The translations under genes were made by a program, and so were the position numbers. 64,000 bases of DNA. It comes from a virus. A model generated the notes under the pieces. That model was given only the letters and a program-made list of their open reading frames with translations. It did not search any database and was not told the DNA's origin. This document shows, piece after piece, positions 4,201-42,279 of the stretch (position 1 is the first letter of the stretch; the number at the start of each line of letters is the position of its first letter). The DNA lies in the IMG/VR virus record IMGVR_UViG_3300037521_000345, positions 35,004 through 99,003 of that record; one strand, written 5' to 3'.

Positions 4201-5342
4201 CTCTAATAAGAAAGACAGCAGGTGAAATTGAAGAACTATTAGGATTTCAAGAAGAAGAGGAAGAAGGAGTTGATGTATATGAGGGTCAAATAATTACAAA
4301 AAGTCCAGGTGGTCATGTTGTTGATATTGACGTATTTTCTAATATTGATATAGATTCTTTTCCTTCCATTAAAAAGTTAGTTGAAAGAACTAATAAAAAA
4401 TATAAAAAACCTACTAAAGAAAAATTTACAACTAGAGGGGTTTCAATTAAAGGGATATTAATTATATTTAGAATTGAACAAGAGTTAAAAATTGGAGTGG
4501 GAGATAAACTCTGTAACCGATATGGAAATAAAGGTATTATATCTTTAGTTCAAAAAGATGAATTAATGCCAAGAACACCTTGGGGTGAAACAGTTGATAT
4601 TATTATGAATCCTCTTGGAGTTACTGGTCGAATGAATATAGGTCAAATATATGAATTGTATTGTGGTCTTATCTCTAAAGAAGTAGCAAATAGAATGGTT
4701 AAATTGAGCAAAGCTCAAGGCATTGCATTGATGAAAGCTGTAATAACAAGACTTGATAATACAAAAAATAAAAAAATTAGTACATCATTGATTGCTACAA
4801 TGACTGCAATGAGCGATGTAAAATATAAAAAGATGTTAGAGCAAATTCAAAAAGATAAGTTTATACCAATAGTTATTCCTCCATTTCAATCTCCTAAACA
4901 TAAAAGTATTTTAGAAGTATTAAAATTATTAAAATTAAAAACAGGATATAAATTAAAACTTCCAGAGTATAATACAAAAACTCAAAATGCGGTTCCATTT
5001 GGATATGAATATGTTTCTAAATTAGAACATATTTCAGATGCTAAATTACATGCTAGATCAACTGGTCCAACAACTGGAAAAGTTGGTCAACCAACTGCTG
5101 GTAAAAGAAAAGAGGGTGGGCAAAGAATAGGAGAAGGAGATACATGGGCATTAACAAGTTATAATTGTCCTACAATATTATCTGAACTCTTTGGACCTAT
5201 GTCTGATGACTTTGTATCTAAAAATGAAATGATGTCAGAAATTATACAAAATGGAAGAACAGATTTTAAAGAAACAAAAATGTCTCCAACTAGAGATTTA
5301 TTAAAAGCATATTTTATTTCTTTAATGCTAGGAGGTCAATAA
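1278..5342 (+). CDS. RNA polymerase beta subunit (first RNAP set), with long N-terminal extension
   Basis: 1354 residues, about as long as E. coli RpoB. Core motifs are in the C-terminal two thirds: 'GYNFEDGLVINERL', the lysine/arginine-rich 'GDKLCNRYGNKGIIS' near residue 1075, 'MNPLGVTGRMNIGQ' near 1110 and the C-terminal clamp motif 'GGQRIGEGDTWAL'. The first roughly 400 residues do not look like RpoB and hold a charged, low-complexity stretch (near 215-245) with two similar 'VKTA' segments, a possible linker or processing region. It ends by overlapping the next start (TAATG). The extension is lacking in the second beta (39250). By analogy with phiKZ-group virion polymerases this could be the packaged enzyme; that part is inference. 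Confidence 0.93.
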   Translation: MIKFQSLVQYSRVVDGVRFFSDKDRPFVLFYFSENSTLYEDYPKMNLRRIDARYIVVPITQIPVSRLTGDQRKVYKSFGLLPFQSNQVYPLNANIIFDTSKYVSLIDKMYKPTTYRQRAGFLLNNFLYKSFNSFPDNYEKVLIYTVDVNKPINSFINRKIFPILRTMKGDEISFDHMLMALIGESSTRYRLLVKDRNYKFARVSQYIRKVKMISSDDEKEQEVKTATNSFDEKDSKVKTAIQNYLNKNAKDLEKVSNNELDKTERDRLTIASILYKLTGDFQKSQRLAKAIPKKSIKTATEKISRLYKDDLLTGEKAVSLSESYIVQGINVSRVVQNKTPEHIFDKRRIDFQTNLKKDMSNAFKVLEKGNVPIKFNSFKITHKKGRAGELKKSDVSIITVSITDAAGKNQTFEFEIPQIDPDSGTFRVNGQRKCLINQIVLTPISFPKPYDSKFESSYARFHIYSKKTKRLSYLEAYMGSFRLPLMILLSYCFGFEKTVKKLGLQYEIVKDKPNKDVVFTEVPSSYMVFKNLDTDLKKEMVTSFTHAKINQYNIKKDFLSKDYFVELIIQMTGRVDSTYLINNNIDYIVDPVAKQILVNQLLPYKLEDIMHYMATKSVDGYVQERNDIKYQRIRNSEILVHLAQKQFLSSYTEYKEQFLSGNKDAKFNFPPGVILSQFTNLEIVQNMEYANPVEEMATITKISPVGKTVGGIPDKEGLNLQARNVHRSYFGNIDPVDTAEGGNIGVTQQLTVDAYLTSSRGLFGIKDLKNDEGAGILSTTLSMVPFIENNEGARMIMAGNQGKQMLPLKNPEPPIVQTGYESLLSNVLSNNFIKRSPCAGKVTKITGDFIEIACNKGSKKKVVITPVQLKSGAGKNTLSTFKPSVEVGQSVKNKQVIAEGSCISGGTISLGRNLATCYMPYQGYNFEDGLVINERLVSDDKLTSLHGIDVEATVDRKDRILHIIDIGAKTKKGDPLIRKTAGEIEELLGFQEEEEEGVDVYEGQIITKSPGGHVVDIDVFSNIDIDSFPSIKKLVERTNKKYKKPTKEKFTTRGVSIKGILIIFRIEQELKIGVGDKLCNRYGNKGIISLVQKDELMPRTPWGETVDIIMNPLGVTGRMNIGQIYELYCGLISKEVANRMVKLSKAQGIALMKAVITRLDNTKNKKISTSLIATMTAMSDVKYKKMLEQIQKDKFIPIVIPPFQSPKHKSILEVLKLLKLKTGYKLKLPEYNTKTQNAVPFGYEYVSKLEHISDAKLHARSTGPTTGKVGQPTAGKRKEGGQRIGEGDTWALTSYNCPTILSELFGPMSDDFVSKNEMMSEIIQNGRTDFKETKMSPTRDLLKAYFISLMLGGQ

Positions 5343-26926: not shown

Positions 26927-27949
26927 ATGATAAGACTAGTAAATTGGCTGCTCACTCGTAGATGTAATCTCAAATGTGAGTATTGCTCAATTACAAAAAA
27001 TTATTCTGACATACCAAAAGAATATCCCAATATGGATCATTATATAAAAAATGAAATGACCACAGAGTATGTTTTAAAAGGATTGGAAAGACTTAATAAA
27101 CATAATCCAGATTGTTTTCATATCTTTTATGGAGGTGAACCACTTTTAAGAAAAGATTTATCACAAATTATTAATTACTGTAATGAAAATGATATTCACT
27201 ACACAATAATATCAAACAATACAGATCAGATTCGTCCACTAATTGATAAATTATTTGAAGAAGTTGATTATATTCAAGGATTTACTGCATCTGTTGATCC
27301 ATCCTTTAATGAGAAAAATACAGATGATAGAATAGTTAAAAGTGCAGCAGGATTTGTAAATCTATTAAGATTAAAAGATCGTGTTAAAGATCTTGTTGCT
27401 GAAATAACTGTTATGAAACATAATGTAAAATATTTATATGAACTTGTTGGGGCATTAACAGTAAGTGGTATAAGTAGTGATATAACATTTATTGATATAG
27501 CAAAAAGTCCATATTATGATTTCTCGAATATGAGTGATAAAAATTTATTAGTTGAACAGAGTGATGAAGTATCTAAAATATTTCAACGATTGATTAATAG
27601 TGATTTTGATATTCATATGAAAAATGTTCTACTTCCAATGATTTATAAAATACTTCCATCGAATTTAGATTGTGAATTAGAAAAAGGAGTTCATAATATT
27701 ACCGTTGATGCAGATGGAACTATTAGATTATGTTTGAGAATAAGAGGTACTCATGCTCCAAAGTTAGTTAAGATACCAAATTTGATTAATGATAATGATA
27801 AGGTATCATTTATTGCTGAAAAGGCAATTGCAAAAGATAAAGAGATTTATTGTTTGGGATGTAATCATACATGCTTATTAATGAGTATGTATATTGATAA
27901 AACAGATCGAGGAAGTGAGGATTTAATTCACGTCAATAGGAGGGAATAA
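26927..27949 (+). CDS. radical SAM protein with SPASM-like C-terminal cysteines
   Basis: 340 residues. The 4Fe-4S motif C13-x3-C17-x2-C20 ('RRCNLKCEYC') opens the protein, followed by 'FYGGEPLLRKD' (GGEP SAM-binding motif). The C-terminal part has 'IRLCLRIRG' and 'YCLGCNHTC', a cysteine set like SPASM/twitch auxiliary cluster domains. Such enzymes usually modify peptides or proteins, or act as anaerobic maturases. It is not QueE-like: QueE has a different N-terminal layout and is shorter. Substrate unknown; neighbouring small proteins are candidates only by position. Confidence 0.85.
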   Translation: MIRLVNWLLTRRCNLKCEYCSITKNYSDIPKEYPNMDHYIKNEMTTEYVLKGLERLNKHNPDCFHIFYGGEPLLRKDLSQIINYCNENDIHYTIISNNTDQIRPLIDKLFEEVDYIQGFTASVDPSFNEKNTDDRIVKSAAGFVNLLRLKDRVKDLVAEITVMKHNVKYLYELVGALTVSGISSDITFIDIAKSPYYDFSNMSDKNLLVEQSDEVSKIFQRLINSDFDIHMKNVLLPMIYKILPSNLDCELEKGVHNITVDADGTIRLCLRIRGTHAPKLVKIPNLINDNDKVSFIAEKAIAKDKEIYCLGCNHTCLLMSMYIDKTDRGSEDLIHVNRRE

Positions 27950-27951
27950 AA

Positions 27952-28275
27952 ATGGCAGTAGAAGAACTTATTAGAAATGCTGTAAAATTTTGGGAGACTT
28001 TATATGATGCTGGAGAAGCTACAGTTAGATTTACTAAAAAAAGTGGTGAAGCAAGAAATATGAAATGCACTTTAGATTTTAATAAAATTCCACAGAGACA
28101 TCATCCTAAGACTGTTAATCTGCCAAAAATATTAAAACTGATGCAGAAGAGCGGAATAATCCATGTTTATGATTTAGATAAAGAAGATTGGAGATCAGTT
28201 CCTTTTGAAAGAGTTGATTGGATAGAGACACCAGATCAAAGATTTAAAGTCGTACCATTCAAAAATAGGAGTTAG
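27952..28275 (+). CDS. Sm-like SH3-barrel small protein (WYL_2/DUF2693-like), 107 aa
   Basis: The pattern 'TVRFTKKSGEARNMKCTLDF' then 'IHVYDLDKEDWRSVPFERV' fits the small beta-barrel family described as WYL_2/DUF2693, common in T4-like phages, where a phage protein carries only this barrel. Function unknown; WYL-type barrels bind nucleic acids or ligands. RBS AGGAGGG just before the ATG. Confidence 0.65.
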   Translation: MAVEELIRNAVKFWETLYDAGEATVRFTKKSGEARNMKCTLDFNKIPQRHHPKTVNLPKILKLMQKSGIIHVYDLDKEDWRSVPFERVDWIETPDQRFKVVPFKNRS

Positions 28276-28277
28276 AT

Positions 28278-28658
28278 ATGGGAGAAATTATAGAAGAACT
28301 TTTAAAAAAAATTCCATCAAATGAAATTCTTGTACAGATTAGAGAAATCTGTAAAGAAATTTGGGAAGAAGAAAAAGAAGCAATTGAATATCATCAGGCA
28401 TTACCAAAAGGAGCTAATATATTTCTTGCGATAAGAGTACCTTCTAAACATATAGGAGATATATCATTTCTAACAATTGAAAGAGATCCAATGGAAGAAT
28501 ATGTCTCAAGTTATTACTCAATCAAAATAAAGTATATTGAAAATATAGATCATCCTCAAATGCCAAGAAAATATCAATCTCATAAACTTGAAGGAAGATC
28601 CGCAATAAAAATCTTAAGTGAATTTGCGAAACTTGTAAAATTTTATAGAGGGGAATAA
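28278..28658 (+). CDS. hypothetical protein, 126 aa
   Basis: Not recognised. Amphipathic helical N-terminus followed by beta-rich centre. It is two bases after the previous stop and two before the 884-residue gene, so it is part of the operon leading into the ubiquitin-like cassette, but no motif ties it to that system. Confidence 0.65.
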   Translation: MGEIIEELLKKIPSNEILVQIREICKEIWEEEKEAIEYHQALPKGANIFLAIRVPSKHIGDISFLTIERDPMEEYVSSYYSIKIKYIENIDHPQMPRKYQSHKLEGRSAIKILSEFAKLVKFYRGE

Positions 28659-28660
28659 TT

Positions 28661-31315
28661 ATGCAGCGTGTTAAAGATGATTTTGAAGATTATGATATTC
28701 GTATAAATAGTAGTTTTGCTTCTTTATTACTTTCAAATTTACAAGAAATAGACTCAACAAAAGATCATAAAAAAGCAACACCAGTAAGACGACTAAAAGT
28801 ATTACCAACAGAAGAATATCTTAAAAAATATTCAAAGCTAACATCATATGCTTCAACGATTCTCCCTCCTGGATGTAGATATGTTGAACCTCTTCCAAAT
28901 GGTGGTAAAATATTTATTATTGAAGAACAACCACAATTTAGAACAATTGCAATGAATATAAAATTTGATATTATGTATGAAGAGATCAAAGCACAGAATT
29001 TATTATCAAAATATGAAATTGAAGGATGGTTGGAGAGTACTTCTGAAGGACGTTTGGGAGAGCGTTATCATAAATTAAACCTTGCATTTCCATATGTTAT
29101 ATTTATTGTTTATATTAGTCCTTCAACAAAAGTTGAAAAAGGATATTGTTTCCTTAGAACCAAGCAAATGTTAGGATTATCTGATTATCTTTTTAAAATT
29201 CCTTTATCAAATATTGCAGAAAATCAGGTAATATGTTTTGGTGGTCGTCTGAATAAAAATCTCTATAATACAGATGCAGAAGCTGTTAGAGATACTATTG
29301 ATATATTTTGGACAAGTGTGTTTAATCAAGATTATACATATAATCTTAAAGCATACAATGATGTTTCAGGAATTTCAAATTTCTTGGAATGGCAATATCT
29401 GTCAAGGGAAGATCCAATGTTTATATATCGAGCTGATTGGATTAAATACAAAGGAACTATTTATGATCTTATTAATAGTTTAAAAGAAAGACTTACTTCA
29501 GCAGCTGGTCGATTAGATAATCCTGGATTATCTACATATAGAAGATTTATTGATATATTTACAAAACCTGCAAAAATTGGAGAAATTCGAACTGGAAAAA
29601 TTCGAACTAGAATTGAACCAGTTTATTATGATGTCACTAATAGTTATTTCTTAAACAATGAACTTAGAATAGAAATTGGAGATTCATTTAAAAATCGAAC
29701 AGGTTCTAAAAAATATCATATAATTTCATTTATTGGTCTTAAAGGAAAAGAACCAAAAACTATTAGACTTTCAAAGAATAAAAAACTCTTCAACTTTAAA
29801 CTAAATGAATCTTCAAAAAATTATATATTAAAACAACTTAAAGAAGAACGATATATTAAGAGTATTGAAATTGATGGAATGGAAATTAAAGCTGATGATA
29901 TTATAAACTACAAAGATAATGTGGGAAATATAGTACATAAAAGAGTTCTTTATATTAGAAAAACTGTAGATGGTCGTTCAGAAATAAAACTTGGTACCAA
30001 ATATTTCTTAGCTCAAAATCTTCCATCACCATTAAAAAAGACTAATATAGGTAAACCAGAAATTTATGGTATTAACTTGGAGAAAGGAATAGAGTATTCA
30101 TATTTTCATGCTTCTGCATCTAAAACTATTATTAATAAAGTAGAAAGATGTACATTCGATGCTATTGATGTTGGATTAAATAATGAATTAATATATAGAT
30201 TTAAATCTTTAGAATCTGGAAGAGATTCAAGTTCTATAATTGTTCGTATGAGTCACGAGGATACAAGTTATAGACAAAGGATATATCTAAAATTGAGTGA
30301 TACATTATTGTGTCAAAATTCTCTTATCATTTCAGTTGGTCGATTATTAAGAAAATTTATAGATTATGATAATGAAGGAAATGAAATACCAGCTAAAGTT
30401 TATAAATCTCCTACTCATTATAATATGGATATCAATGCAACTCACGAAATTGCAGATCCAAGACAAGTACATAATCTTATTAAAAATGAAGGTAAAACAT
30501 TTGAGATTGATACACATTTTGGTATTCTTAAATTTGAAATTGGTGATTTAGTCGTAATTGCAAATTGGAAAAATCCTTTAAGTATTTTGGATATAAGAAG
30601 GATTGAGGGATTCAATTTAGAAGATAAGACTGGATCAACTGAACTCTCATTTATATTAGCAGATAAAACGGGTAATTTAACTAAAGAGTTATATGTATTT
30701 AAAGATAATATTAGAATTGGATATATTAGAAAAATTATAACTAGATTTGAAGGTCTATCTTCTGGTATGAAGATAATAGCAAATGTGGGTAGGATATCAA
30801 ATTTTCCAAAGAAAGATACTAATATTATTGTTGGTATTATTACTGATGGTCCTCATCCAATGGTATTATGTTCAAACGGATGCAGTCTATGGTATCAAGA
30901 TGTTATAGATAATTTTAAACAAATCCCAATAGGTTCATCTGAATGGGCAGCAAGTGAGCATGCTACATTAGATCCAAAAAAAATTAAACTTCAAACAGGT
31001 GATATTGTTATACCATATTATAAAAATTCATTAAACGATTGTGGATATTTAATGGTTCAAATAAGACATGCAAATACTCTTAGATATCATCCACTAAGTT
31101 CATATCGTACATCATATGATAACTATAGTTCTGAAGGTGACAATAAAGCTTTTCAACAAGAATCCATACTTGATTGTATTCCAAATCCAAGAGTTTCAAA
31201 ACCAAAACAAGCTGCGGAAGGATATGTCGCTGGAGTACCTAACTTTCATGGGGGAATTGTTTTGAGTGATAAATCTAAATTTCTCTACATAAATGATCCA
31301 AGGAGCTTTATCTAA
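28661..31315 (+). CDS. 884-aa protein with possible E2-like N-terminal domain (PRTRC-B/Prok-E2_D-like)
   Basis: Residues about 85-255 have the order 'FPYVIFIVYISP', 'KGYCFLRTK', 'ENQVICFGG' with C192, then 'DIFWTSVFNQDYTYN'. This resembles the E2-like fold of PRTRC-B proteins, in which a strand ending G-x-(V/I)-C-x-G is followed by an FW...F helix. Residues 260-884 are beta-rich, with several repeats of an OB/SH3-like look and no recognised motif. It starts the gene run JAMM protease, E1, Ubl, second E1-like, E2-like, each coupled or closely spaced, which supports a role in Ubl conjugation or as its scaffold. The E2-fold call is tentative. Confidence 0.6.
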   Translation: MQRVKDDFEDYDIRINSSFASLLLSNLQEIDSTKDHKKATPVRRLKVLPTEEYLKKYSKLTSYASTILPPGCRYVEPLPNGGKIFIIEEQPQFRTIAMNIKFDIMYEEIKAQNLLSKYEIEGWLESTSEGRLGERYHKLNLAFPYVIFIVYISPSTKVEKGYCFLRTKQMLGLSDYLFKIPLSNIAENQVICFGGRLNKNLYNTDAEAVRDTIDIFWTSVFNQDYTYNLKAYNDVSGISNFLEWQYLSREDPMFIYRADWIKYKGTIYDLINSLKERLTSAAGRLDNPGLSTYRRFIDIFTKPAKIGEIRTGKIRTRIEPVYYDVTNSYFLNNELRIEIGDSFKNRTGSKKYHIISFIGLKGKEPKTIRLSKNKKLFNFKLNESSKNYILKQLKEERYIKSIEIDGMEIKADDIINYKDNVGNIVHKRVLYIRKTVDGRSEIKLGTKYFLAQNLPSPLKKTNIGKPEIYGINLEKGIEYSYFHASASKTIINKVERCTFDAIDVGLNNELIYRFKSLESGRDSSSIIVRMSHEDTSYRQRIYLKLSDTLLCQNSLIISVGRLLRKFIDYDNEGNEIPAKVYKSPTHYNMDINATHEIADPRQVHNLIKNEGKTFEIDTHFGILKFEIGDLVVIANWKNPLSILDIRRIEGFNLEDKTGSTELSFILADKTGNLTKELYVFKDNIRIGYIRKIITRFEGLSSGMKIIANVGRISNFPKKDTNIIVGIITDGPHPMVLCSNGCSLWYQDVIDNFKQIPIGSSEWAASEHATLDPKKIKLQTGDIVIPYYKNSLNDCGYLMVQIRHANTLRYHPLSSYRTSYDNYSSEGDNKAFQQESILDCIPNPRVSKPKQAAEGYVAGVPNFHGGIVLSDKSKFLYINDPRSFI

Positions 31316-33093
31316 TGTTTAAAGTAATAGTAGCAGATGGGAAACAAGAATTACCAGATGATGATATTTATTATATAGTTGCAAAAGAAGGTATTTTTAT
31401 TAAAAAGAAATTGGGTATTATGGATAGTGTATCACCAGTAAAAAATATATCAATATTAGAAAGCGTTAAAGCAACAGCTAAAATGAATATTGAAAAAATA
31501 CCTTCATTAGCAGTAGCTAAAATTGCAAATTTCTTTCGTCATGTTTATAAAGAACATAAATCAGAAGCAATTGTATTATTATTTTATAATGAAGAATCTA
31601 AAAAATATAAACTAGTTCCTCCATCACAAAAGGTCAGTCCAGCTTCAATTGAATATAATAGATCAGTTATTATTGATGGATTTACTATGATTGGAGACAT
31701 TCATAGTCATAGTTCAATGTCTGCATTTCATTCAGGTACAGATCAAGGCGATGAAGAATCCTTTGATGGATTACACATTACATTTGGAAATCTAGGTGAT
31801 GAAATGATAAGTATTTCAGCATCAATCGTTTCAAATGGCAATAGAGTAATGGTTGAACCAGAACAATATATGAAAGGGGTATCATTAGAAAGTAAAATTG
31901 ATGAGGTTGAAAAAATTCCTACTACTCGAATTTATAGATGGGTAAATGGAGCTATGGTTGAACAAACTCCAAAGTATTCAACTAAATCTTATAAAACCAT
32001 TCATAAGTTTGATAAGCGATATAAAATAATCAGTCAAACTGCTATCAAAGCTATAGTTCCTCCCAAATGGATAAAGGCAGTTGAACATGGTTTCTCTCCA
32101 TATGGACAATATGGTCAGGCATGGAGAAATGTTTGGGAAGGAAATTATCAAAATGGTCGATGGAATCGTGGTAAATGGATTCCCCCTCAATATAGTAGAG
32201 GATGGAATGAAAACTTTGATCCAGATGTTTGGGCATTGAATAAAAAAGATGAAAAAATACCACCTCAAAATGTTGGAGTTAAAGTTGACCCTATTAAATT
32301 TCCACCACATAATCAAGGTCCAGTCATTACTGATATAACTCCAGAGAAACGCAATGCTTGTGAAACTTGTCCCTTTAAAGATAGAGCATTTGAATATGTT
32401 GCTTCACGTTTAGTAAAAGAAAATAAAGGTACAATAGTAGAAGAAGAAGAAAAAGGTATTTGGGATGAAAAAGAAGTATATGAATGTATGAAGTGTAATG
32501 TAGTTGTATCATTTGATTTTGATGATAATGGCGATGTTATAGGAGATATAATATGTCCTGAATGTAAATCAAATGATCATTTGATTGAACTTGATATGGA
32601 AGAAGATTCATTTGATGATGAAATGAAATTTGATCTTGATCCATATGCACCAGATTCAAAACCTGGTAGTAGTCTTCATTGTGAATCTTGCAATAGTGAT
32701 TTTGATGCATCAATGCTTCGAAGTGATGTTGAAAAAGGAGCAAAATGTCCATTTTGTGAAACATCATTATTTAATGCAGAAGATCTAAATTATGTGAAGG
32801 AAAATGATGAATATGTTTGCAAAGGTTGTTCAACTATGTTTACTTATGATCTAATAAAGAATGATTGTTGTCCTTTTTGTAAAGAACCTCTTATATTAAA
32901 AGGACATGTACCAGGAGAATTATTAAATCCAGATTCAGAAAAAATAGAGCAGGTATCTAAAGAAGAAATACATAACTATCAAGCAGCAAAAGAAAATCCG
33001 CATCCAGCTGATATTATACCTGATCCTTCTGAAAAGAGACAAAGAATAAATCCAATAGAATGGTTAAATGAAAAGTTAGGGAGAAATAAATGA
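31315..33093 (+). CDS. JAMM/JAB-domain metalloprotease with C-terminal zinc ribbons
   Basis: 592 residues. A textbook JAMM motif H129-x-H131-x7-S139-x2-D142 ('DIHSHSSMSAFHSGTD') with an upstream Glu near residue 83. The middle region (about 205-320) is rich in Trp/Tyr/Gly. The C-terminal part has a CETC pair and three four-Cys zinc ribbons (CMKC...CPEC, CESC...CPFC, CKGC...CPFC) between about 340 and 530. JAB enzymes remove or process ubiquitin-like proteins. It is coupled to the genes on both sides (31315; 33090-33093). The zinc ribbons could bind the Ubl or its substrates. Confidence 0.86.
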   Translation: MFKVIVADGKQELPDDDIYYIVAKEGIFIKKKLGIMDSVSPVKNISILESVKATAKMNIEKIPSLAVAKIANFFRHVYKEHKSEAIVLLFYNEESKKYKLVPPSQKVSPASIEYNRSVIIDGFTMIGDIHSHSSMSAFHSGTDQGDEESFDGLHITFGNLGDEMISISASIVSNGNRVMVEPEQYMKGVSLESKIDEVEKIPTTRIYRWVNGAMVEQTPKYSTKSYKTIHKFDKRYKIISQTAIKAIVPPKWIKAVEHGFSPYGQYGQAWRNVWEGNYQNGRWNRGKWIPPQYSRGWNENFDPDVWALNKKDEKIPPQNVGVKVDPIKFPPHNQGPVITDITPEKRNACETCPFKDRAFEYVASRLVKENKGTIVEEEEKGIWDEKEVYECMKCNVVVSFDFDDNGDVIGDIICPECKSNDHLIELDMEEDSFDDEMKFDLDPYAPDSKPGSSLHCESCNSDFDASMLRSDVEKGAKCPFCETSLFNAEDLNYVKENDEYVCKGCSTMFTYDLIKNDCCPFCKEPLILKGHVPGELLNPDSEKIEQVSKEEIHNYQAAKENPHPADIIPDPSEKRQRINPIEWLNEKLGRNK

Positions 33094-33773
33094 ATTATTT
33101 ATCTATCAAAATACTTGGATTGGGCGGTGTAGGTTCAGTATTATGTGAAAAAATATCAAGATTCTTAAACTACTCCAGAGATATTAGAGCAAATATTACG
33201 CTCATAGATGGAGATTCGTATGAAGCAAAAAATTATCAACGTCAAGAGTTTACAATATTAGGAAATAAATCTGAAATTAAAGGGGGTGATTTAGAAGAGA
33301 AATTTCCAGAATTAGAATTAGACTTTTATCCTGAGTATATAAATCAGCACAATATTAATCAAGTTATTAAAACAGATGATATTGTATTTCTATGTGTAGA
33401 TAATCATAAAACCAGAATGATTACTTCTAATTACTGTAATAATTTAAATAACATTACTTTAATTTCTGGGGGAAATGAATTTACAGATGGTAATGTACAA
33501 ATTTATGTCAGAAAAGGAGGTAAAGATTTAACCCCTGACTTATGTGCTTATCATCCAGAAATTGCAAATCCTGTAGATAAATTACCAGAGGAAATGAGTT
33601 GTGAAGAACTCGCCAATTCGGATCCTCAGCTATACTTCACTAATGTGTGGGTAGCTACGATAATGTGTTCCGCATTTTATAATGTGGTTATTAAGAATCA
33701 GATAGGGACATCAGAAATTTATTTCGATATGAAACAGATGTCCATGATTGCGCAGTCAAGAGCTCTGAAATAA
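33090..33773 (+). CDS. E1/ThiF-type adenylyltransferase
   Basis: 227 residues. GLGGVGS (10-16) nucleotide-binding loop, 'IDGDSYEAKNYQRQEF' (39-54) with the E1 Asp, Asn and Arg, 'CVDNHKTR' (102-109), and a candidate catalytic cysteine C171 in 'EEMSCEELANSDPQ' followed by a conserved-looking Asn. The 'SC...A...Q...N' pattern is that of PRTRC ThiF proteins. Such enzymes adenylate a Ubl C-terminus and may form a thioester. Overlaps the JAMM gene by four bases and precedes the Ubl gene. Confidence 0.85.
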   Translation: MNYLSIKILGLGGVGSVLCEKISRFLNYSRDIRANITLIDGDSYEAKNYQRQEFTILGNKSEIKGGDLEEKFPELELDFYPEYINQHNINQVIKTDDIVFLCVDNHKTRMITSNYCNNLNNITLISGGNEFTDGNVQIYVRKGGKDLTPDLCAYHPEIANPVDKLPEEMSCEELANSDPQLYFTNVWVATIMCSAFYNVVIKNQIGTSEIYFDMKQMSMIAQSRALK

Positions 33774-33810
33774 TAACCTTAGATAAAAAAAGAATAGGAG
33801 AATTAACATC

Positions 33811-34317
33811 ATGTCGAATGAATATTCACGATCGAATTTAGAAGAGATGACAGTAAAAGAACTTCGTCGTCTTTGTGTAGACAACCTGGCAATTCCAGGT
33901 ATGACAAAAAAGCGTAAAGATATTGTTATCGACGCTATCTTGAAAAATGCAAATGCAGGTCCTATCAAATCAGCTAAAACAGCTCCTGCCGAAACTTCCA
34001 TTAAACCAACGCCTGGACCAATTAAAGAGATGGACTTTACTGGCCACTCAATAATGAATAAACCCTATGAGTCATTTGGTAAGAAAACCACAACTACAAT
34101 CCAGGTAACTTGTGGTGCCAGCACAGGAGCTTTTCCTGTTGAAGGAAAAAGTGTTGCAGAAGTTGGTGAGTTCCTGCGTGAAGTTCTTAACGTAGATAAA
34201 TTATCCACTGGATTGGTCAATGGTAAAGAGGTTCGTGGTGATCACGTATTAAAGAATGGAGATAGTTTGGAATTTATGAAACCTTCCGGACGTAAGGGTG
34301 ATCGTAAGGGTTGCTAA
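33811..34317 (+). CDS. ubiquitin-like beta-grasp protein with N-terminal SAP/Rho-N-like domain
   Basis: 168 residues. Residues 8-46 ('LEEMTVKELRRLCVDNLAIP'...) look like a SAP/Rho-N helix-extended-loop-helix, a nucleic-acid-binding module. A Pro/Thr linker follows. Residues 93-158 have a beta-grasp profile: strands around 'TTTTIQVTCG' and 'GAFPVEG', a helix, 'VNGKEVRGDHVLKNGDSLEF', similar to ThiS/MoaD and PRTRC-C type Ubls. The tail GRKGDRKGC would need trimming to expose a C-terminal Gly, a job for the JAMM protease (inference). The gene looks richer in G/C and in CGT/GGT codons than its neighbours and is followed by a hairpin, suggesting high expression. Confidence 0.75.
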   Translation: MSNEYSRSNLEEMTVKELRRLCVDNLAIPGMTKKRKDIVIDAILKNANAGPIKSAKTAPAETSIKPTPGPIKEMDFTGHSIMNKPYESFGKKTTTTIQVTCGASTGAFPVEGKSVAEVGEFLREVLNVDKLSTGLVNGKEVRGDHVLKNGDSLEFMKPSGRKGDRKGC

Positions 34318-34332
34318 AATATTATCCCTGCA

Positions 34333-34361
34333 AGATGGGGATTCTATTTAGGTCCCCATCT
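34333..34361 (+). terminator. hairpin after the Ubl gene
   Basis: AGATGGGGA (34333-34341) pairs perfectly with TCCCCATCT (34353-34361) around an 11-base loop; the following tract is TATCTCTTCT, a poor T-run. Probably a terminator or attenuator that sets a separate mRNA end for the Ubl gene. Confidence 0.6.
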
Positions 34362-34388
34362 ATCTCTTCTGAAAGGAAACCTTAAACT

Positions 34389-35291
34389 TTGAACTTCTTT
34401 AATACTATAACAATAATTGGAACAGGAACATTAGGAGGACATCTTTGTAAACATCTTGCTGAAAGTTCAAAAGTATGTAAACTAATTTTAATTGATAAAG
34501 ATATTGTTGACACTAAAGATACAGAAGTTGGTATCTTTCAACCAGTGGATATTCATGAACCAAAAGTTCATGCACTATACCATAAATTTAAAAATTATAA
34601 TACAGAAATTGAACCAATGGTAGAATTTTATATAGATGGTATTACAAATTTACCAATATCAGATCTTACAATTGATTGTAGAAATATATTTGGAAAAAGA
34701 GATTTAAATATTGATATGAAAATGTTTATATCAGAAAGATTTCTAATATTAGATTTTGGAAAAAAGTATGAAAATGAAAATCAACGTAAAGGCGAATATT
34801 CTATTCAACTATCAGAACATGAAATAAGTAGAGCTGCATACTATGCTACAACTTTAATATGTAGTGATATATTGAAAGAACTATTAAAAAGTCAATCAAT
34901 AAAATATATTGATATTGATATTATACAAACAATAATGTTAAAAAGTATTAAAGAATCAAAACAAAAATCCAACATTATTTATGATTTAGATAAGGATACT
35001 AAAAGGTTGAGAAGAATTGATGAAGTTATACAACCTATATTAAAAAAGAATAAAACAACTTCTCTTAAAATAGCAGTCAAAGAAAGAAATTCAATTGTTA
35101 GAGAAGTTTTTAATATGCCAAAGTTTGCAGAAACGACATATAAAATAATTCCACAAGATAGTTTAAAACAACCAGAAGATGTAATTGATATTTTAAAAAA
35201 AGCAATTGAAGGTAAAAGTGAAACTTTAAAATTTCTACCAGTTCTTATAGATGATAAAATTCATATTTTAGAAGATACAGGAGGAGCATAA
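34389..35291 (+). CDS. second E1/ThiF-like Rossmann protein, 300 aa
   Basis: TTG start, with GAAAGGA upstream; no ATG lies near. 'ITIIGTGTLGGHLCKHL' (7-23) and 'LILIDKDIVDTKDTEVG' (32-48) are the glycine loop and Asp motif of the ThiF/E1 Rossmann fold, but the R-Q pair and an obvious catalytic cysteine are absent. It is therefore probably a partner or pseudo-E1, as in heterodimeric E1 enzymes. Overlaps the next gene (TAATG). Confidence 0.7.
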   Translation: MNFFNTITIIGTGTLGGHLCKHLAESSKVCKLILIDKDIVDTKDTEVGIFQPVDIHEPKVHALYHKFKNYNTEIEPMVEFYIDGITNLPISDLTIDCRNIFGKRDLNIDMKMFISERFLILDFGKKYENENQRKGEYSIQLSEHEISRAAYYATTLICSDILKELLKSQSIKYIDIDIIQTIMLKSIKESKQKSNIIYDLDKDTKRLRRIDEVIQPILKKNKTTSLKIAVKERNSIVREVFNMPKFAETTYKIIPQDSLKQPEDVIDILKKAIEGKSETLKFLPVLIDDKIHILEDTGGA

Positions 35292-35761
35292 TGGAACATC
35301 ATTTACAAATATTTGGTTCTAAAATTAGTCCAAGTGTTGATTATAATTTTTACTTTGAAAAAATAATTCCAAAATTTATTATTAAAGATGGAGTTCCAGA
35401 AGTTATAACTGATCTTCATGAAAAATATCATCTAGAAGGATTTATGATTAAGACTATTGGTAAAAAATTATTATCTGTTATGATATATGGAAGGCATCCA
35501 AATGTAGATATTAATACAGATGAACTTTGTTTAAAGGTTGAAGAAAAACGTACAGTTGTTACAGATATACAAGCTTTAAAAGATATATTAATCAATAGAC
35601 TCCAAGTTTGGTATTTCAATGACTGTCATTTTAGACCAGATGAATTTTTCTATAAAACAAAACCGGTTGATGGATTTATGAAAATAGATGTTAATTTTAA
35701 AAAGGGAGAAATATACGATGGAGAAGCACCCTTTAGACGAATATATCCAACTGAAGATTGA
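35291..35761 (+). CDS. E2-like (UBC-fold) conjugating enzyme candidate, 156 aa
   Basis: Residues 69-81 read HPNVDINTDELCL. In canonical E2 enzymes HPN, a short turn, then (I/L)-C-L is the catalytic signature, with eight residues from Asn to Cys; here it is nine (N71 to C80). A strand pair before it ('MIKTIGKKLLSVMIYG') and the helix after it ('DIQALKDILINRLQVW') also fit the UBC fold, and 156 residues is the usual E2 size. Together with the JAMM, E1 and Ubl genes this makes a conjugation pathway likely. No search was run; the fold call is by motif and context. Confidence 0.68.
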   Translation: MEHHLQIFGSKISPSVDYNFYFEKIIPKFIIKDGVPEVITDLHEKYHLEGFMIKTIGKKLLSVMIYGRHPNVDINTDELCLKVEEKRTVVTDIQALKDILINRLQVWYFNDCHFRPDEFFYKTKPVDGFMKIDVNFKKGEIYDGEAPFRRIYPTED

Positions 35762-35942
35762 AGAATTTATAAATCAACATGAATCACAAATTACAAAAAA
35801 AGATGCACAAATTATCATTAAATCTTTAATGCCATTTATTGATGAAATGGTATCAGAAAAAGTAAAATATCATTTTAAATTATTAGCAAATCATTTACTA
35901 GATACATTAAAATCTACAGAGGAGAAATTAAAAGATGCCTAG
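35718..35942 (+). CDS. hypothetical helical protein, 74 aa
   Basis: Start taken at the ATG at 35718 with AAGGGAG upstream, inside the end of the E2-like gene (44-base overlap). Product is Lys/Glu-rich and fully helical in appearance. Its end overlaps the beta' start by eight bases, so it bridges the Ubl cassette and the second RNA polymerase operon. Confidence 0.6.
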   Translation: MEKHPLDEYIQLKIEEFINQHESQITKKDAQIIIKSLMPFIDEMVSEKVKYHFKLLANHLLDTLKSTEEKLKDA

Positions 35943-38619
35943 AATTCTTAACTATAATGAATTTTGTGAACAATTACAGGATGTTCCGTCATTAAAAGTA
36001 ATAGCAAAAAAAAAGTTTCATCCTGAAGGTCTATTTTCTGAACAAATTTTTGGACCAGTAAAAAATTATACTTGTCAGTGTGGTATCTATTACGGACCAT
36101 CCAATGTAAAAACAGGAAGTAAATGTGATCTATGTAAAGTAGATATTGTTAATAGTGATGTAAGACGAACAAGATTTGCGAAAATAGTTTTACCATTTCC
36201 AATAGTCAATCCTTTATTTTATGATTTATTAGTTGAAATAGGTGGAAAGAATTTAAAATCAGCATTAGATGAGTTGATGAAAAATGAAAAAAGTTTTATG
36301 TATAGTGATGGTGTTGAGCATGTGGTTACATCGGATGAATCAAAAAGACCAAGAGAAGGAACTATCTATGAAAGAACAGATGCAATTTATAAATTAGTTA
36401 AAGATATTGCCACAGGATTAGCAAATGAAGGAATTGAAGAGTGGAAAATTGTTCTTGACAATATTGATAATCTATTAACTGACAAAGTAATTGTATTACC
36501 TCCAGATCTAAGACCAGCATCAAGAGGTGGAGGAGGTAAGCATTTAATGGATAAAATCAATAGATATTATGTTCAAATTTTAACTAATAAAAGTCTGATG
36601 CAAGGAACAATTTTAAATATCCAAAGAGATAAGAATCTATATTATACATACTTTAAATTGATACAAAAAAATGTAAACGAATTATATAACAGAATTCTCG
36701 AAAAGATGGCAAAAAAGGAAGGTTTAATTCGTGGAAATATTTTAGGAAAGAGAATAGATTTTTCAGGTCGAGCAGTAATTACACCTGATCCTTCTCTAAC
36801 ATTAACCGAATGTAAACTCCCTTACTTTATGGCATTGGAGATATATAAACTTCCAATTGCCAAACGAATAATAGAGTTAGAAAAATTTAAAGTATTAAAT
36901 GATGCTCTTGACTTTATTGATAATTGCATTGAATTTAAAAAATTTGATCTCTTTGAAATATGTAAAGATACAGTTGAAGGACAAATATGTATATTAAATA
37001 GACAACCATCGCTACATAGACTTGGAATGCTAGGTTTTGAAGTTCTAATTACATCAGATCAAGTTATTAAAATTCATCCATTAGTATGTCCTCCGTTTAA
37101 TGCAGATTTTGATGGAGATCAAATGGCAGTCTATGTTCCTATTACAGAAGGAGCTAAAAATGAAATATCTGAAAAAATGCTTGCAATTAATAATTTAAGC
37201 AGTCCATCAAATGAAAATTTAACAACCACTCCTAGTCAAGATATTATTTTAGGAATTTATTTCTTGACTAAAGGTATCTTTGATGGACAATTAGATGATG
37301 AGACAGGTCTATCTATTTTTAATAGCACGCTTCCAGAGAATTATCCAATCATTGATGAAACTGTTAATGAGAAGAAATTATTAGATATTTTAAATGATAT
37401 AAAAGATAATTATTCAAATGATGAAATTATTAGAGTTTTAGATACTATTAAAACAGTTGGATTTACATATGCAACATTGTTTGGTTGTACTATGTCATTA
37501 GAAAATTTTCAATCTAAAAAATTAACAGATTTAAGAGATAAAATATTTACAAAAAATACAATTAGAGATCAATTAATCGCATTATCAAATAAAGGAATTA
37601 CAAAAGCATTAAGAGATAATTTTGAATATTCATATATGATTGAATCTGGTGCCAGAGGTAGTTGGGATCAAGTTAAACAAATTATTATGACCCGAGGATT
37701 TGTATCGAATTTCGATGGAGAGATTCTTCCAACTCCTATTAAACATAACCTAGTTGAAGGTTTAACTGAAAAAGAATTTTTCTTTTCAACATATGGATGT
37801 CGAAAGGGACTCCTTGATATTGCATTAAATACAGGGACATCAGGATATCTTTCAAGAAAATTAATTTTCACTTGTGCTAATTTACAAATTGATACAAATT
37901 TAGATGACTGTGGAACAACTGATCTTCTTGAAGTTTATGTTAAAACCGAAAGAAAAGCAAGAATGTTAATCAATAAATATCAATCAACTGAAACAGGTTT
38001 GGAAGTAATTACTAAACAAAATTATAAAAATATAATTGGAAAAACAATTTGGATACGAAGTCCAATATTATGTAAGTCGCCTAAACTATGTTGCAAATGC
38101 TATGGAGATTTATATAAAAAACTCAATAGTCGATTTGTTGGAATCATAGCTGCACAGACTCTTGGTGAACGAGGGACTCAATTGGTTCTTAGAACTTTTC
38201 ATACATCAGGATCAGCTGTTATAAAAGGTGAATCTCAAGAAGATGGTTCATTAAAGCAAAAAGATATTATTGGGGATTTAGCAACTGTATCACAAATTCT
38301 ACATAAATTCAAAAATAAAATATATACTGATATAGTTCAAGAATTATTTGAAGTATATAATAAAGACATTTATCATGTCCATTATGAATGTGTTGTTGCT
38401 CAATTAATGTGGAAAGATTATAAGAAATGGAGACTTATAAAAGATAGACATTTATATGCTTCAGATTATTATTCAATACAGTCAGTTCCAAATCAAGAAA
38501 GTTGGATATTAGCAATGGCATTCTCAAATCCTAAAAAGAGTATCTTACATGGAATTTTAAATGAGGGAAAATACTCAGGTATAATGGATAAAATTCTAAA
38601 AGGGGAAAAAATAGTATGA
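35935..38619 (+). CDS. RNA polymerase beta' subunit, complete (second RNAP set)
   Basis: 894 residues in one chain. N-terminal 'GLFSEQIFGPVKNYTCQCG' with a four-Cys zinc site (CQCG ... CDLC), 'NILGKRIDFSGRAVITPDP', 'LNRQPSLHRLGM', catalytic NADFDGDQMAV near residue 390, trigger/bridge region 'GCRKGLLDIALNTGTSGYLS', a second Cys cluster 'CCKCYGDL' and 'TLGERGTQLVLRTFHTSG'. Bacterial RpoC is about 1400 residues, so this is a compact version. Unlike the split subunits of phiKZ-like phages it is unbroken. Forms the second polymerase with the beta at 39250. Confidence 0.95.
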   Translation: MPRILNYNEFCEQLQDVPSLKVIAKKKFHPEGLFSEQIFGPVKNYTCQCGIYYGPSNVKTGSKCDLCKVDIVNSDVRRTRFAKIVLPFPIVNPLFYDLLVEIGGKNLKSALDELMKNEKSFMYSDGVEHVVTSDESKRPREGTIYERTDAIYKLVKDIATGLANEGIEEWKIVLDNIDNLLTDKVIVLPPDLRPASRGGGGKHLMDKINRYYVQILTNKSLMQGTILNIQRDKNLYYTYFKLIQKNVNELYNRILEKMAKKEGLIRGNILGKRIDFSGRAVITPDPSLTLTECKLPYFMALEIYKLPIAKRIIELEKFKVLNDALDFIDNCIEFKKFDLFEICKDTVEGQICILNRQPSLHRLGMLGFEVLITSDQVIKIHPLVCPPFNADFDGDQMAVYVPITEGAKNEISEKMLAINNLSSPSNENLTTTPSQDIILGIYFLTKGIFDGQLDDETGLSIFNSTLPENYPIIDETVNEKKLLDILNDIKDNYSNDEIIRVLDTIKTVGFTYATLFGCTMSLENFQSKKLTDLRDKIFTKNTIRDQLIALSNKGITKALRDNFEYSYMIESGARGSWDQVKQIIMTRGFVSNFDGEILPTPIKHNLVEGLTEKEFFFSTYGCRKGLLDIALNTGTSGYLSRKLIFTCANLQIDTNLDDCGTTDLLEVYVKTERKARMLINKYQSTETGLEVITKQNYKNIIGKTIWIRSPILCKSPKLCCKCYGDLYKKLNSRFVGIIAAQTLGERGTQLVLRTFHTSGSAVIKGESQEDGSLKQKDIIGDLATVSQILHKFKNKIYTDIVQELFEVYNKDIYHVHYECVVAQLMWKDYKKWRLIKDRHLYASDYYSIQSVPNQESWILAMAFSNPKKSILHGILNEGKYSGIMDKILKGEKIV

Positions 38620-39249: not shown

Positions 39250-42200
39250 TTGAAACTAAAAAATCCAGTTTTTAAAATTCAAAGTGAAGATAATAATATC
39301 TTCACAATTCGTAAAAAGGACCAAGAGCTTATACTACCAGTGACAAAAGTTATACTCCAACCTGCAATTGATTTAGGATTTACACTAAATGAACTTACAT
39401 TAAAAGAGTCTAGATTTTCATCAGGAGAGTTATCAAAAACAGTCAAACAAAATCTCACAATCAAGTTACAAAAAGGAACTTCTAATATTGATTTAAGTTT
39501 ACACATTCCTAAATTGATAGATGATAATTATATTATAATTAATGGTCGTAGAAAAATTCCTCTATTTCAGTTATTTGATATTCCAATTGTTACGAGAGGA
39601 GAAAATATAAAACTACGAACCAATGTGGCAACATTAACAATTTTAAAAGATAGAGAACAACCATTTGTTAAAGTTAGTTTTTTAGGAAAAAAAGTTCCTC
39701 TATCAATATTAATGTTTGCGTATTATGGAATTGAAGGAATGATAAACAATAAGGAATTAGATCTTCCAAATGTTAAAATTCAAGATTTAGATGATAATAT
39801 TTTAATGGATCTATTAATAAAGGAGTGTAAACTTATCTATGATGAATTACAAAGCAACACCACACAAGATGATTTTATTTTAGAAATAGGAAGAGCATAT
39901 TCAAAATATAATTCTAAATCTAAAGGTCATGATATTATTTATGCTCTCGATCTAATTCCACAGGTTGATATATTTACAAAAACTTTTTTGACAACAGGAT
40001 CATTATTAGGCGAATTAATTTATACAATTAAGACAGGCGATGTGAGCGATATATTATTTACAAATAAAAGAGTTAGATGTTTTGAGTATATGATTTTTTC
40101 AAGGATATCAAAAATTATATTTGATTTATGCTTTTCAAATAGAACAGCTAAACAACCAAAATTCAACACAAATACAACTCAAATATTAAGTGAATGTAAC
40201 GTTTCAGATATTGTTCAATTTGATTTTTCAATAAATCCTATTGAGGAATTAACAAAATTATCAAGGATAAGTCTTCTCGGTCCAGGAGGATTTAAAAGAG
40301 AAAATATTCCAAAACATTTAAGAGATATATGCCCCACAATGTTTGGTCGTATTTGTCCCGTAGACACCCCAGACCGCGATAATTGCGGAGTTCTACAGAA
40401 CTTAATACCTAATGTCAAGTTAGACCAACATCTCCGATTTACGAATGAAATATGCGAGAAACAACCCATATCAATACCTGTATCTCTCACTCCATTTTGT
40501 GAGCATGACGATCAAACAAGATTGCAAATGGCATCATCACAAATGAGACAATCTATTATGTTAAAAGAATTTGATCAACCAATGATTAAATCAGGTTGTG
40601 AAGGATTATATACAGATTATACACAGTTCATTAAACGTGCTAAAAAGAATGGGGAAGTCACTCATCTAGATGAGAAGTATTTGATGGTTGTATATGATGA
40701 TAAAACAATTGATATCTTTGATGTTGAATATAGAAATATCTATGTTGAACATATGGATATTATGAAACTCTATGTTAACGTAGGTGATAAATTTAAAGCT
40801 GGGGATATATTAGCAGAAAGTAATTTTGTTCAAGATGGCGAAATTAATTTTGGTAGAAATCTATTAACAGGAGTGATGATTTATTATGGATGGAACTATG
40901 AAGATGGAATTATCATATCTGATAAATTAATACAAAATGATGCTTTTACATCAGTCCATTTTAAAGATTTATCATTTGTAATCCCTCCAATTAAAGTTTT
41001 GATATCTCTATCAGAAAATGAATACAGACCATTACCAAAAGCTCTTGAAAAAATTGGTCAAGGAGATACTTATGCAATTTTAAAAACTCTTTCACTTGAT
41101 GATTTTTATTCTGTTTTTACAGAAAGCTCTAAATTAGTAGCAGAAAAATCATATATAATACCCAAGATAAAAATATTTGCAAATGAATGGAATACAGATA
41201 TTCCTGAATATAAAGAGTGGGTAGAAAAGACTATTGAAACACAACAGAAAAAAGAGTCAATCTTTAGAACAATAATTAAAGAAAAGTTACCAAGAGAACA
41301 AGCAATAAAATTTATAAGAGAAAGAGATTTAGAACTTTTCTCATTCGTTGGTAAATATAAAATTAAGAAAGAAAAAATAAATGGAATATATGTAGAGATA
41401 TCTGGAATTCATTTTAGATCAATCAAGGTTGGAGATAAGATCGCAAATAGACATGGGAATAAAGGAGTTATATCTAAAATATTACCTCAAGAGATGATGC
41501 CACAATTAGAGGATGGTAGACATTTAGATGTTTGTATTAATCCATTAGGTATTATATCTAGAATGAATATTGGTCAACTATTTGAACTACATCTAACAAT
41601 GTCATTATATGATCTACAACAAAATGCATTACAAATGTTAAAGAAAGAAAAACCACAAGATCAGATCAAAAATTATTTAACTGGATATATTCAAATTGTT
41701 GATAAAACAAAAGATAGTTGGTATACAAAACAATTTGTAGAACAGCTTCCAGATATTATAGATATTCCCTTTATTAAGGCATTTTCATTAATACAACCTC
41801 CATTTGAATCTTGTCATTCAGAGGATTTAGAAAAAGCATTAAAATATACAAATACAGGATTTACATATAAACTATATGATCCAATTGTAAGAAAGAATTT
41901 TTTAAATCAAATTTCAGTTGGATATATATATTTTTTAAGAATGGTTCATATAGCAGAAGAAAAGTTGGCAGCAAGAGGAATTGGTTCGTATGCAAAACGA
42001 ACATTACAACCACTGGGTGGGAGAAAAAATAAAGGTGGTCAGAGATGTGGTGAAATGGAAACTGCTTGTATTATCGGACATGATGCTCCAAAGAATTTAT
42101 TTGAATTCTTAACAACAAAATCAGACTGTATAGATTTAAAAAATGATTACATTAGAAATTATATTAATACTGGACGAGTAGTAAAAACTGAAGATTTAGA

Positions 42201-42279
42201 TCCAATGCCAGAATCAGTTAAATTATTAAATTCATATTTAACAGTATTAGGGGTAGATTATCATGGCAGTTCAAAATGA
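39250..42279 (+). CDS. RNA polymerase beta subunit, complete (second RNAP set)
   Basis: 1009 residues. TTG start, supported by AAGGAGGAG eight bases upstream and no nearby ATG. Motifs: 'GPGGFKRENIPKHLRDI', 'FGRICPVDTPDRDNCG', 'YGWNYEDGIIISD', 'GDKIANRHGNKGVIS', 'INPLGIISRMNIGQ' and 'GGRKNKGGQRCGEMETACI'. It lacks the 350-residue N-terminal extension of the first beta, so the two polymerases are clearly distinct. Unsplit, in contrast to many giant-phage beta subunits. No alpha, omega or sigma gene was recognised in the window. Confidence 0.95.
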   Translation: MKLKNPVFKIQSEDNNIFTIRKKDQELILPVTKVILQPAIDLGFTLNELTLKESRFSSGELSKTVKQNLTIKLQKGTSNIDLSLHIPKLIDDNYIIINGRRKIPLFQLFDIPIVTRGENIKLRTNVATLTILKDREQPFVKVSFLGKKVPLSILMFAYYGIEGMINNKELDLPNVKIQDLDDNILMDLLIKECKLIYDELQSNTTQDDFILEIGRAYSKYNSKSKGHDIIYALDLIPQVDIFTKTFLTTGSLLGELIYTIKTGDVSDILFTNKRVRCFEYMIFSRISKIIFDLCFSNRTAKQPKFNTNTTQILSECNVSDIVQFDFSINPIEELTKLSRISLLGPGGFKRENIPKHLRDICPTMFGRICPVDTPDRDNCGVLQNLIPNVKLDQHLRFTNEICEKQPISIPVSLTPFCEHDDQTRLQMASSQMRQSIMLKEFDQPMIKSGCEGLYTDYTQFIKRAKKNGEVTHLDEKYLMVVYDDKTIDIFDVEYRNIYVEHMDIMKLYVNVGDKFKAGDILAESNFVQDGEINFGRNLLTGVMIYYGWNYEDGIIISDKLIQNDAFTSVHFKDLSFVIPPIKVLISLSENEYRPLPKALEKIGQGDTYAILKTLSLDDFYSVFTESSKLVAEKSYIIPKIKIFANEWNTDIPEYKEWVEKTIETQQKKESIFRTIIKEKLPREQAIKFIRERDLELFSFVGKYKIKKEKINGIYVEISGIHFRSIKVGDKIANRHGNKGVISKILPQEMMPQLEDGRHLDVCINPLGIISRMNIGQLFELHLTMSLYDLQQNALQMLKKEKPQDQIKNYLTGYIQIVDKTKDSWYTKQFVEQLPDIIDIPFIKAFSLIQPPFESCHSEDLEKALKYTNTGFTYKLYDPIVRKNFLNQISVGYIYFLRMVHIAEEKLAARGIGSYAKRTLQPLGGRKNKGGQRCGEMETACIIGHDAPKNLFEFLTTKSDCIDLKNDYIRNYINTGRVVKTEDLDPMPESVKLLNSYLTVLGVDYHGSSK

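Follow-up and report, generated by a model that had tools for sequence, protein, structure and literature searches.

Here we describe a six-gene cassette in a 64,000-nt stretch of viral DNA (positions 35,004-99,003 of the IMG/VR record IMGVR_UViG_3300037521_000345; the whole stretch is called the window below), which with a probability of roughly 0.77 encodes a phage-borne, PRTRC-derived system for the conjugation and removal of a ubiquitin-like protein (Ubl). An original prediction, made from the DNA letters, had proposed a complete Ubl conjugation cassette in a large phage, and this is supported by protein families, profile comparisons, catalytic residues, synteny and co-inheritance, from which the activity, targets and purpose of the cassette are inferred. 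The window runs to the end of the 99,003-base record, so that the genome is probably incomplete. Six open reading frames (ORFs) on the plus strand, between 28661 and 35761, make up the cassette:

28661..31315, plus strand, E2-like protein of 884 residues with an N-terminal domain of the Prok-E2_D/PRTRC_B type
31315..33093, plus strand, PRTRC_A-like JAMM/JAB isopeptidase (PRTRC_A and Prok-JAB profiles, motif tally)
33090..33773, plus strand, PRTRC_ThiF-like adenylating enzyme, E1-like (ThiF and PRTRC_ThiF profiles, hhalign)
33811..34317, plus strand, Ubl precursor of 168 residues (Rho_N, ThiS and TGS matches, tail tally)
34389..35291, plus strand, second ThiF-like protein, ThiF2 (ThiF profile, fold matches of a model)
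35291..35761, plus strand, small E2 candidate with H69-P70-N71-x8-C80 (motif conservation, weak PDB profile match)

The ORFs form one tightly coupled run, as predicted, with shared or overlapping ends at 31315/31315, 33093/33090 and 35291/35291, and gaps of 37 bases before the Ubl and 71 bases before ThiF2.

In the first step of the proposed pathway, the JAMM protein would cut the Ubl precursor back to ...GRKG (in most homologues KG is already the C-terminus). The E1 would then adenylate the terminal Gly of the Ubl and load it onto Cys171, from which the Ubl would be transferred to Cys192 of the E2-like protein, where Asn184 may occupy the place of the catalytic Asn of E2 enzymes. The E2-like protein would attach the Ubl to lysines of its targets, while the JAMM protein would also take the tag off. 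A SAP/Rho_N domain in the Ubl could bring it, or its conjugates, to nucleic acid, and the likeliest targets would be proteins of phage transcription and replication, or else proteins of the host nucleoid and host RNA polymerase. Two proteins may make up an additional sub-module: ThiF2, probably as a regulatory or pseudo-E1 partner, and the small HPN protein, probably as another E2.

The E1 matches ThiF (2.7e-20) and PRTRC_ThiF (4.7e-8), and in profile-profile comparison by hhalign it aligns with PRTRC_ThiF end to end (97.6% over 213 columns), through the catalytic Cys. The GLGGVG loop, the D/N/R triad and the candidate Cys that had been pointed out are all present (D40/D42; N48/R51/Q52 in KN..RQ; K60/K64). 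The candidate catalytic Cys171, in PEEMSCEEL, is invariant in a 15-member alignment, and all E1s inspected, including the most distant, have a Cys at this position. The protein is thus a stand-alone E1 of the PRTRC_ThiF type with the SC catalytic motif.

The exact HxHx7Sx2D motif reported for the JAMM protein is present as H130-S-H-x7-S140-x2-D143 (residues 130-143, HSHSSMSAFHSGTD; family form HSHxxxSAFHSGTD), and is intact in 46 of 48 distinct homologues, the exceptions being one cut by a contig end and one a residue shorter. The protein matches PRTRC_A (TIGR03735) at 4.3e-15, under the curated cut-off, and Prok-JAB at 5.4e-5, and the family aligns with PRTRC_A by hhalign at 98%. The N-terminal domain of the JAB protein is included in this alignment, but the conserved Arg/Trp of PRTRC_A are missing (RPW falls on K30/K31/L33, and there is no Trp). 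The C-terminal part is a run of CxxC zinc knuckles (window 32359-32890), of which there are seven in the window copy and zero to nine among relatives, a variation that looks as if zinc ribbons had been gained and lost.

The Ubl consists of a Rho_N/SAP-like helical domain (residues 5-46), a linker and a beta-grasp domain (residues ∼93-163). On its own, in a single-protein scan, the window copy matches Rho_N at 2.6e-4 and ThiS at 0.027, while ThiS is detected in 11 of 15 family members (best 3e-4), TGS in 11 of 15 and Rho_N in 13 of 15 (best 2e-7). The predicted beta-grasp fold is thus supported; the predicted Gly-rich tail is not, the tail having a single Gly, in the form KP[AS]G[KR]KG that is invariant in the near family. 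All 43 distinct Ubls have KG followed by zero to five residues: 28 end at KG, 11 add a Cys, and the remaining extensions are R, YK and LA, together with the five residues DRKGC of the window copy. The mature Ubl is predicted to end at Gly163, and the extensions beyond KG are what the JAMM protease could trim.

Relatives of the cassette were found at 17 IMG/VR loci by an E1 scan and at 54 by a profile scan. The order Rad50 - radical SAM - WYL - ORF - E2-like - JAMM - E1 - Ubl - ThiF2 - small protein - ORF - RpoC - RpoB is kept in ∼40 IMG/VR contigs, as far as the contigs reach. The catalytic residues are kept across ∼45 diverged loci with overall identities of 25-60%, and the ratio of nonsynonymous to synonymous substitution rates (dN/dS) is 0.09-0.51 for the five larger proteins in comparison with near relatives. 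A chance arrangement is excluded by the synteny in dozens of contigs, by the conservation of catalytic residues at this level of identity and by dN/dS values that for five of the six genes lie far under 1. The conserved catalytic residues and dN/dS also led us to reject the idea that the phage holds a decayed remnant. Among phage GenBank records (INPHARED), a search with the E1 returned distant ThiF matches only, and tblastn with the E2-like protein gave no match.

The cassette seems to be of two-layered build, ThiF2 and the small protein having been added later to a core of four genes. A set of deep relatives (L047, L049, L050, L053/L054 and L056) carries the E2-like protein, JAMM, E1 and Ubl, or as many of these as the contig holds, and ThiF2 and the small protein were not found in this set; in L049 the contig continues past the Ubl and reaches RpoC a short way on, so that a contig end does not explain the absence there. 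Two further loci (L058/L059) have JAMM and E1 only. In agreement with a two-layer build, the protein distances of E1, Ubl and E2-like protein correlate with one another and with RpoC (0.77-0.86; with RpoC, r 0.77-0.84), while those of ThiF2 correlate best with the small protein (r 0.79). Since these proteins share one phage phylogeny, the correlations demonstrate co-inheritance, not interaction.

Members of the E1 family also occur in contigs of metagenome-assembled genomes labelled Thermoplasmatales, Falkowbacteria, Woesearchaeota, Neisseriaceae and Pelotomaculum (L070-L074). Two of these, L070 and L072, hold most of the syntenic block, suggesting that these are probably phage contigs binned with other organisms. 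Related JAMM-E1 pairs are carried by Firmicutes plasmids. A Metabacillus plasmid (L065, 7483-9441) encodes a 135-residue protein ending in GGAKG directly before JAMM and ThiF genes, with an Asn-x7-Cys protein upstream; this set is probably an unannotated PRTRC-like one.

The E2-like protein has a Prok-E2_D/PRTRC_B-type domain (residues ∼69-260) followed by a C-terminal arm of ∼600 residues. In a single-protein family scan the window copy matches Prok-E2_D at 0.0022, and the domain is detected in 11 of 13 family members (best 5.4e-5), so that the E2-like domain predicted at this position is borne out at the profile level only. Asn184-x7-Cys192 is invariant in the family alignment while most other positions change, and its spacing is that of the HPN...C motif in classical E2 enzymes. 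The Cys motif of PRTRC_B, FNTWDNGKIC, has the same Asn-x7-Cys. Other comparisons were negative: a PDB search with the E2-like profile gave unrelated matches only (best 0.009), the NCBIfam scan of the window proteins gave no PRTRC_B or PRTRC_C match, and the arm did not match PRTRC_F in profile comparison. The arm (window 29600-31312) has its own invariant motifs (GD, FPKKD and LCSN...LWY) and repeated GD-x-V/I segments, which resemble small barrels in tandem; it is absent from deep relatives, which retain the Cys motif.

ThiF2, the second ThiF-like protein of the original prediction, is confirmed as such by its ThiF match (3.4e-8, single-protein scan) and by a structure model (mean predicted local distance difference test score, pLDDT, 75.6) with fold matches to UBA5, MccB, ThiF and Cap2 (E 1e-7 to 1e-5). 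Its N-terminal half, an E1-like Rossmann domain, keeps GxGxLG, D36/D38, K59 and DCR. The Arg of NxxRQ is not conserved (the position is E, K, H, F etc.), and no conserved Cys is present in the crossover region. Such a loss of Arg and Cys is seen in the inactive half of eukaryotic heterodimeric E1s, and because of this resemblance ThiF2 is considered pseudo-E1-like. The last 75 residues are modelled as beta-beta-alpha-beta-beta, and the window copy ends in ...ETGGA; among 41 distinct sequences Ala is the last residue in 39 (GAA in 26, GGA in 10). Sequence and profile comparison of this domain with the Ubl and with PDB gave no match, so that its beta-grasp nature depends wholly on the order of strands in a middling model. 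By analogy with CBASS, it is thinkable that the domain, with its terminal Ala, is a second modifier.

The small protein was proposed as an E2 because of its HPN...C, and this motif is real and conserved. HPN and Cys are invariant in a 30-member alignment, and HPN-x8-C is present in 34 of 40 distinct proteins, the other six keeping the Cys with HAN, HPL, HPH or a longer loop. The N-x8-C spacing is that of the PDB E2 enzymes aligned with it. A search of 177,635 PDB sequences with the 30-member profile gave three matches up to E 10, all of them ubiquitin-conjugating enzymes matched over the HPN motif (best 0.063); the three are mutually related and count as one weak match, though to the right family. 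Its model, a confident one (pLDDT 86.5), has strands at 35-42, 50-56 and 59-66, HPN at 69-71, Cys80 and a helix at 93-104, in the order of E2 enzymes. A Pfam UQ_con match (0.0035) of one member was not repeated in the 30-member scan, from which that member may have been absent or in which it may have been differently started, and is not relied on. By hhalign the protein matches neither PRTRC_B nor the E2-like protein, hence there is no sign that it copies their domain. We regard it as an E2 candidate whose ubiquitin-conjugating (UBC) fold is suggested by the motif, E2 and UEV folds recurring among its fold matches without significance.

If the ThiF2 domain is a modifier, a single cassette could supply the larger clade with two Ubl-type tags. 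One would be the SAP-fused Ubl, passed via the E1 and the E2-D protein; the other would be the ThiF2 C-terminal domain (...ETGAA/GGA), activated at its last Ala and handed on to the HPN-type E2. In this reading ThiF2 would unite a pseudo-E1 and a modifier in one protein, and the phage would tag its own transcription and replication apparatus. We consider this elaboration quite unlikely.

Several findings weigh against a PRTRC-derived conjugation system. The window E2-like domain scores under the Pfam cut-off for Prok-E2_D, and its hhalign comparison with PRTRC_B is weak (E 0.012, a single comparison), though it registers exactly over the Cys region. Also missing is the downstream His that supposedly completes the active site of PRTRC_B (FTHPN of PRTRC_B is FNxD in the phages, with x variable). 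The comparison of the Ubl with PRTRC_C is likewise weak (0.024), though here the alignment registers exactly over the tail, where PRTRC_C ends in GAKG and a few residues or in GTKG, and the phage Ubls show the same alternation (G-x-KG with or without a short extension). The fold search of the small protein is not significant, its best matches being TSG101 UEV domains (recurrent) and a viral E2 with E near 1 or more. Outside its motif this protein also evolves by far the fastest of the six (dN/dS 0.37-1.35, the upper value against L004), perhaps because its partners or targets change. Finally, no E3 and no target was identified.

In place of conjugation, the E2-like protein could be mainly structural or nucleic-acid-binding, with the Ubl activated for a non-covalent or a single dedicated acceptor and the conserved Cys and Asn playing a role in the fold. 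The long arm with its invariant residues, the lack of a conserved His and the weak Pfam scores are in keeping with this. It fails to account for an Asn184-x7-Cys192 that matches PRTRC_B and stays invariant where most of the protein changes, nor would one expect deep lineages to lose the arm and keep the Cys motif; we therefore judge it highly improbable.

A sulfur-carrier or modification pathway would employ many of the same proteins: the E1 would adenylate the Ubl tail, a thiocarboxylate would be loaded, and the radical SAM or another enzyme would modify a nucleotide, tRNA or peptide. The ThiF, MoeB and ThiS matches are compatible with this, a radical SAM gene adjoins the cassette in fixed synteny, and sets of E1, Ubl and JAMM also take part in sulfur transfer elsewhere (Iyer et al. 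2006, PMC1779556). However, two proteins of the cassette bear E2-type Asn-x7/8-Cys motifs, the E1 aligns with PRTRC_ThiF over its full length, and the deep cassettes L050, L053 and L056 have no radical SAM gene nearby. No rhodanese or other sulfurtransferase, nor a partner of the ThiG or MoaE type, was found among the cassette proteins as scanned. Such a pathway is thus very unlikely, and conjugation is the preferred reading.

The window surrounds the cassette with phage replication and transcription genes: a SbcC/SbcD-like nuclease, topoisomerase II, a helicase and RNA polymerase subunits. Its immediate neighbours are:

26927..28658, plus strand, upstream constant neighbours, given as context: radical SAM protein, WYL_2/Sm-like protein and small ORF (family scans, synteny)
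35688..35942, plus strand, short ORF overlapping the 3' end of the small gene, conserved and syntenic in most loci
35935..38619, plus strand, RNA polymerase beta'-type subunit, a constant neighbour, given as context (PHROG RNA polymerase matches, synteny)

The upstream neighbours might play a part in the pathway. The radical SAM gene (26927-27949) matches PADLOC models of prokaryotic viperins at 4e-14, which may represent general radical SAM similarity only. The window encodes two beta-type and one beta'-type RNA polymerase subunits (1278-5342, 35935-38619 for beta', and 39250-42279), which points either to two phage polymerases or to a duplication of the beta subunit. A capsid protein of the T4 Gp23 type is present in several related contigs of 186-277 kb and, by weaker or partial matches, in one of 340 kb and one of 134 kb, which fits large T4-like phages.

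This setting bears on the purpose of conjugation. The same chemistry might serve in counter-defence, with the Ubl put on host immune or RNA polymerase proteins, or competing with host CBASS/Bil machinery. Bacterial E1/E2/JAB systems act against phages (PMC10097602), so that phages could turn the chemistry round, and PADLOC E1-E2 models weakly match both ThiF proteins. Counter-defence genes are usually patchy and variable in place, whereas the cassette lies invariantly in the RNA polymerase/SbcC core block, and the E1, Ubl and E2-like distances follow RpoC; we regard counter-defence as unlikely. We moderately prefer a role in transcription or replication of the phage itself, in view of the fixed position, of an inheritance that goes with the RNA polymerase and of the domain of nucleic-acid-binding type in the Ubl.

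Bacterial Ubl conjugation is known mainly as cargo of plasmids and integrative and conjugative elements, or as anti-phage defence. Here the same chemistry would appear in the conserved core of a large-phage lineage, beside its own RNA polymerase. Infection would offer a defined setting in which to test the PRTRC gene set, for which we know of no demonstrated function. A heterodimeric-looking E1 pair and a compact HPN-type E2 candidate outside eukaryotes would also bear on the origin of ubiquitin pathways.

A search of the open-library literature, with subscription papers and preprints outside its scope, found no description of such a phage cassette, returning the 2006 operon-type paper and the CBASS work; JAB and ThiF had no match in the main text of a 2021 survey of 224 jumbo phages. 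Among known systems, the phage tail assembly proteins TAPI/TAPK resemble the cassette in being a phage-encoded Ubl and JAB, but belong to the tail gene block and have no E1 or E2 (PMC1779556). CBASS Cap2/Cap3 and BubCD-type systems share E1, E2 and JAB chemistry with the cassette, whose E1 matches them in profile at the general ThiF level only. In CBASS, unlike in the cassette, Cap2 fuses E1 and E2, there is no Ubl gene, and the genes sit in bacterial defence islands rather than in a phage core. The conserved terminal Ala of ThiF2 resembles the C-terminus of the non-Ubl protein that is conjugated in CBASS: the cGAS proteins that go with Cap2/Cap3 are conjugated through their last residue, a conserved Gly or Ala, and a Gly-to-Ala change keeps part of the activity (PMC10097602). 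Of the relatives named in the original prediction, PRTRC is the right one for the four-gene core, and Bil and CBASS are more distant.

PRTRC (NCBIfam TIGR03734-TIGR03742) corresponds to operon type 6d of Iyer et al. 2006 (PMC1779556). In plasmids of Cupriavidus, Paraburkholderia, Novosphingobium and Sphingomonas its order is ParB - E - C(Ubl) - F or an unnamed gene - B(E2) - A(JAB) - ThiF. The phage E2-like, JAMM and E1 genes reproduce the B-A-ThiF order, and the proteins likewise include an E2-D family member, a JAB, a stand-alone E1 without rhodanese and a small Ubl ending in G-x-KG, with the catalytic Cys of E1 and of E2 in the same places. The same trio occurs in the cultured Bacillus phage vB_BauM_KLEB27-3 (217 kb; gp196-gp195-gp194), where gp196 matches Prok-E2_D at 2.7e-4 and PRTRC_B at 0.0011, and where a PRTRC_A domain is already annotated. 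Unlike the window, KLEB27-3 keeps the His at the PRTRC position (FNHD) and has no Ubl recognised adjoining the trio, no ThiF2 or HPN protein and no long E2 arm. The layout is therefore less novel than had been claimed in its E2-like/JAMM/E1 part, and differs from PRTRC in the rest. The phage Ubl follows ThiF instead of preceding B and is fused to a Rho_N/SAP-like domain, the E2-like protein has a long arm and lacks the downstream His, the JAB N-terminal domain lacks the conserved Arg/Trp, and the phage clade adds ThiF2 and the HPN protein. PRTRC ParB, E and F gave no match over the cut-off in G000 and four larger phage records (possibly incomplete), while a plasmid control scored; ParB-like matches in G002-G004 were discounted, being below the cut-off and of a kind also given by generic ParB of ordinary genomes. 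Because the JAB Arg/Trp, the downstream His of the E2 and the ParB, E and F proteins are missing, the cassette is not filed as a PRTRC system, and we regard it instead as a relative and variant of PRTRC.

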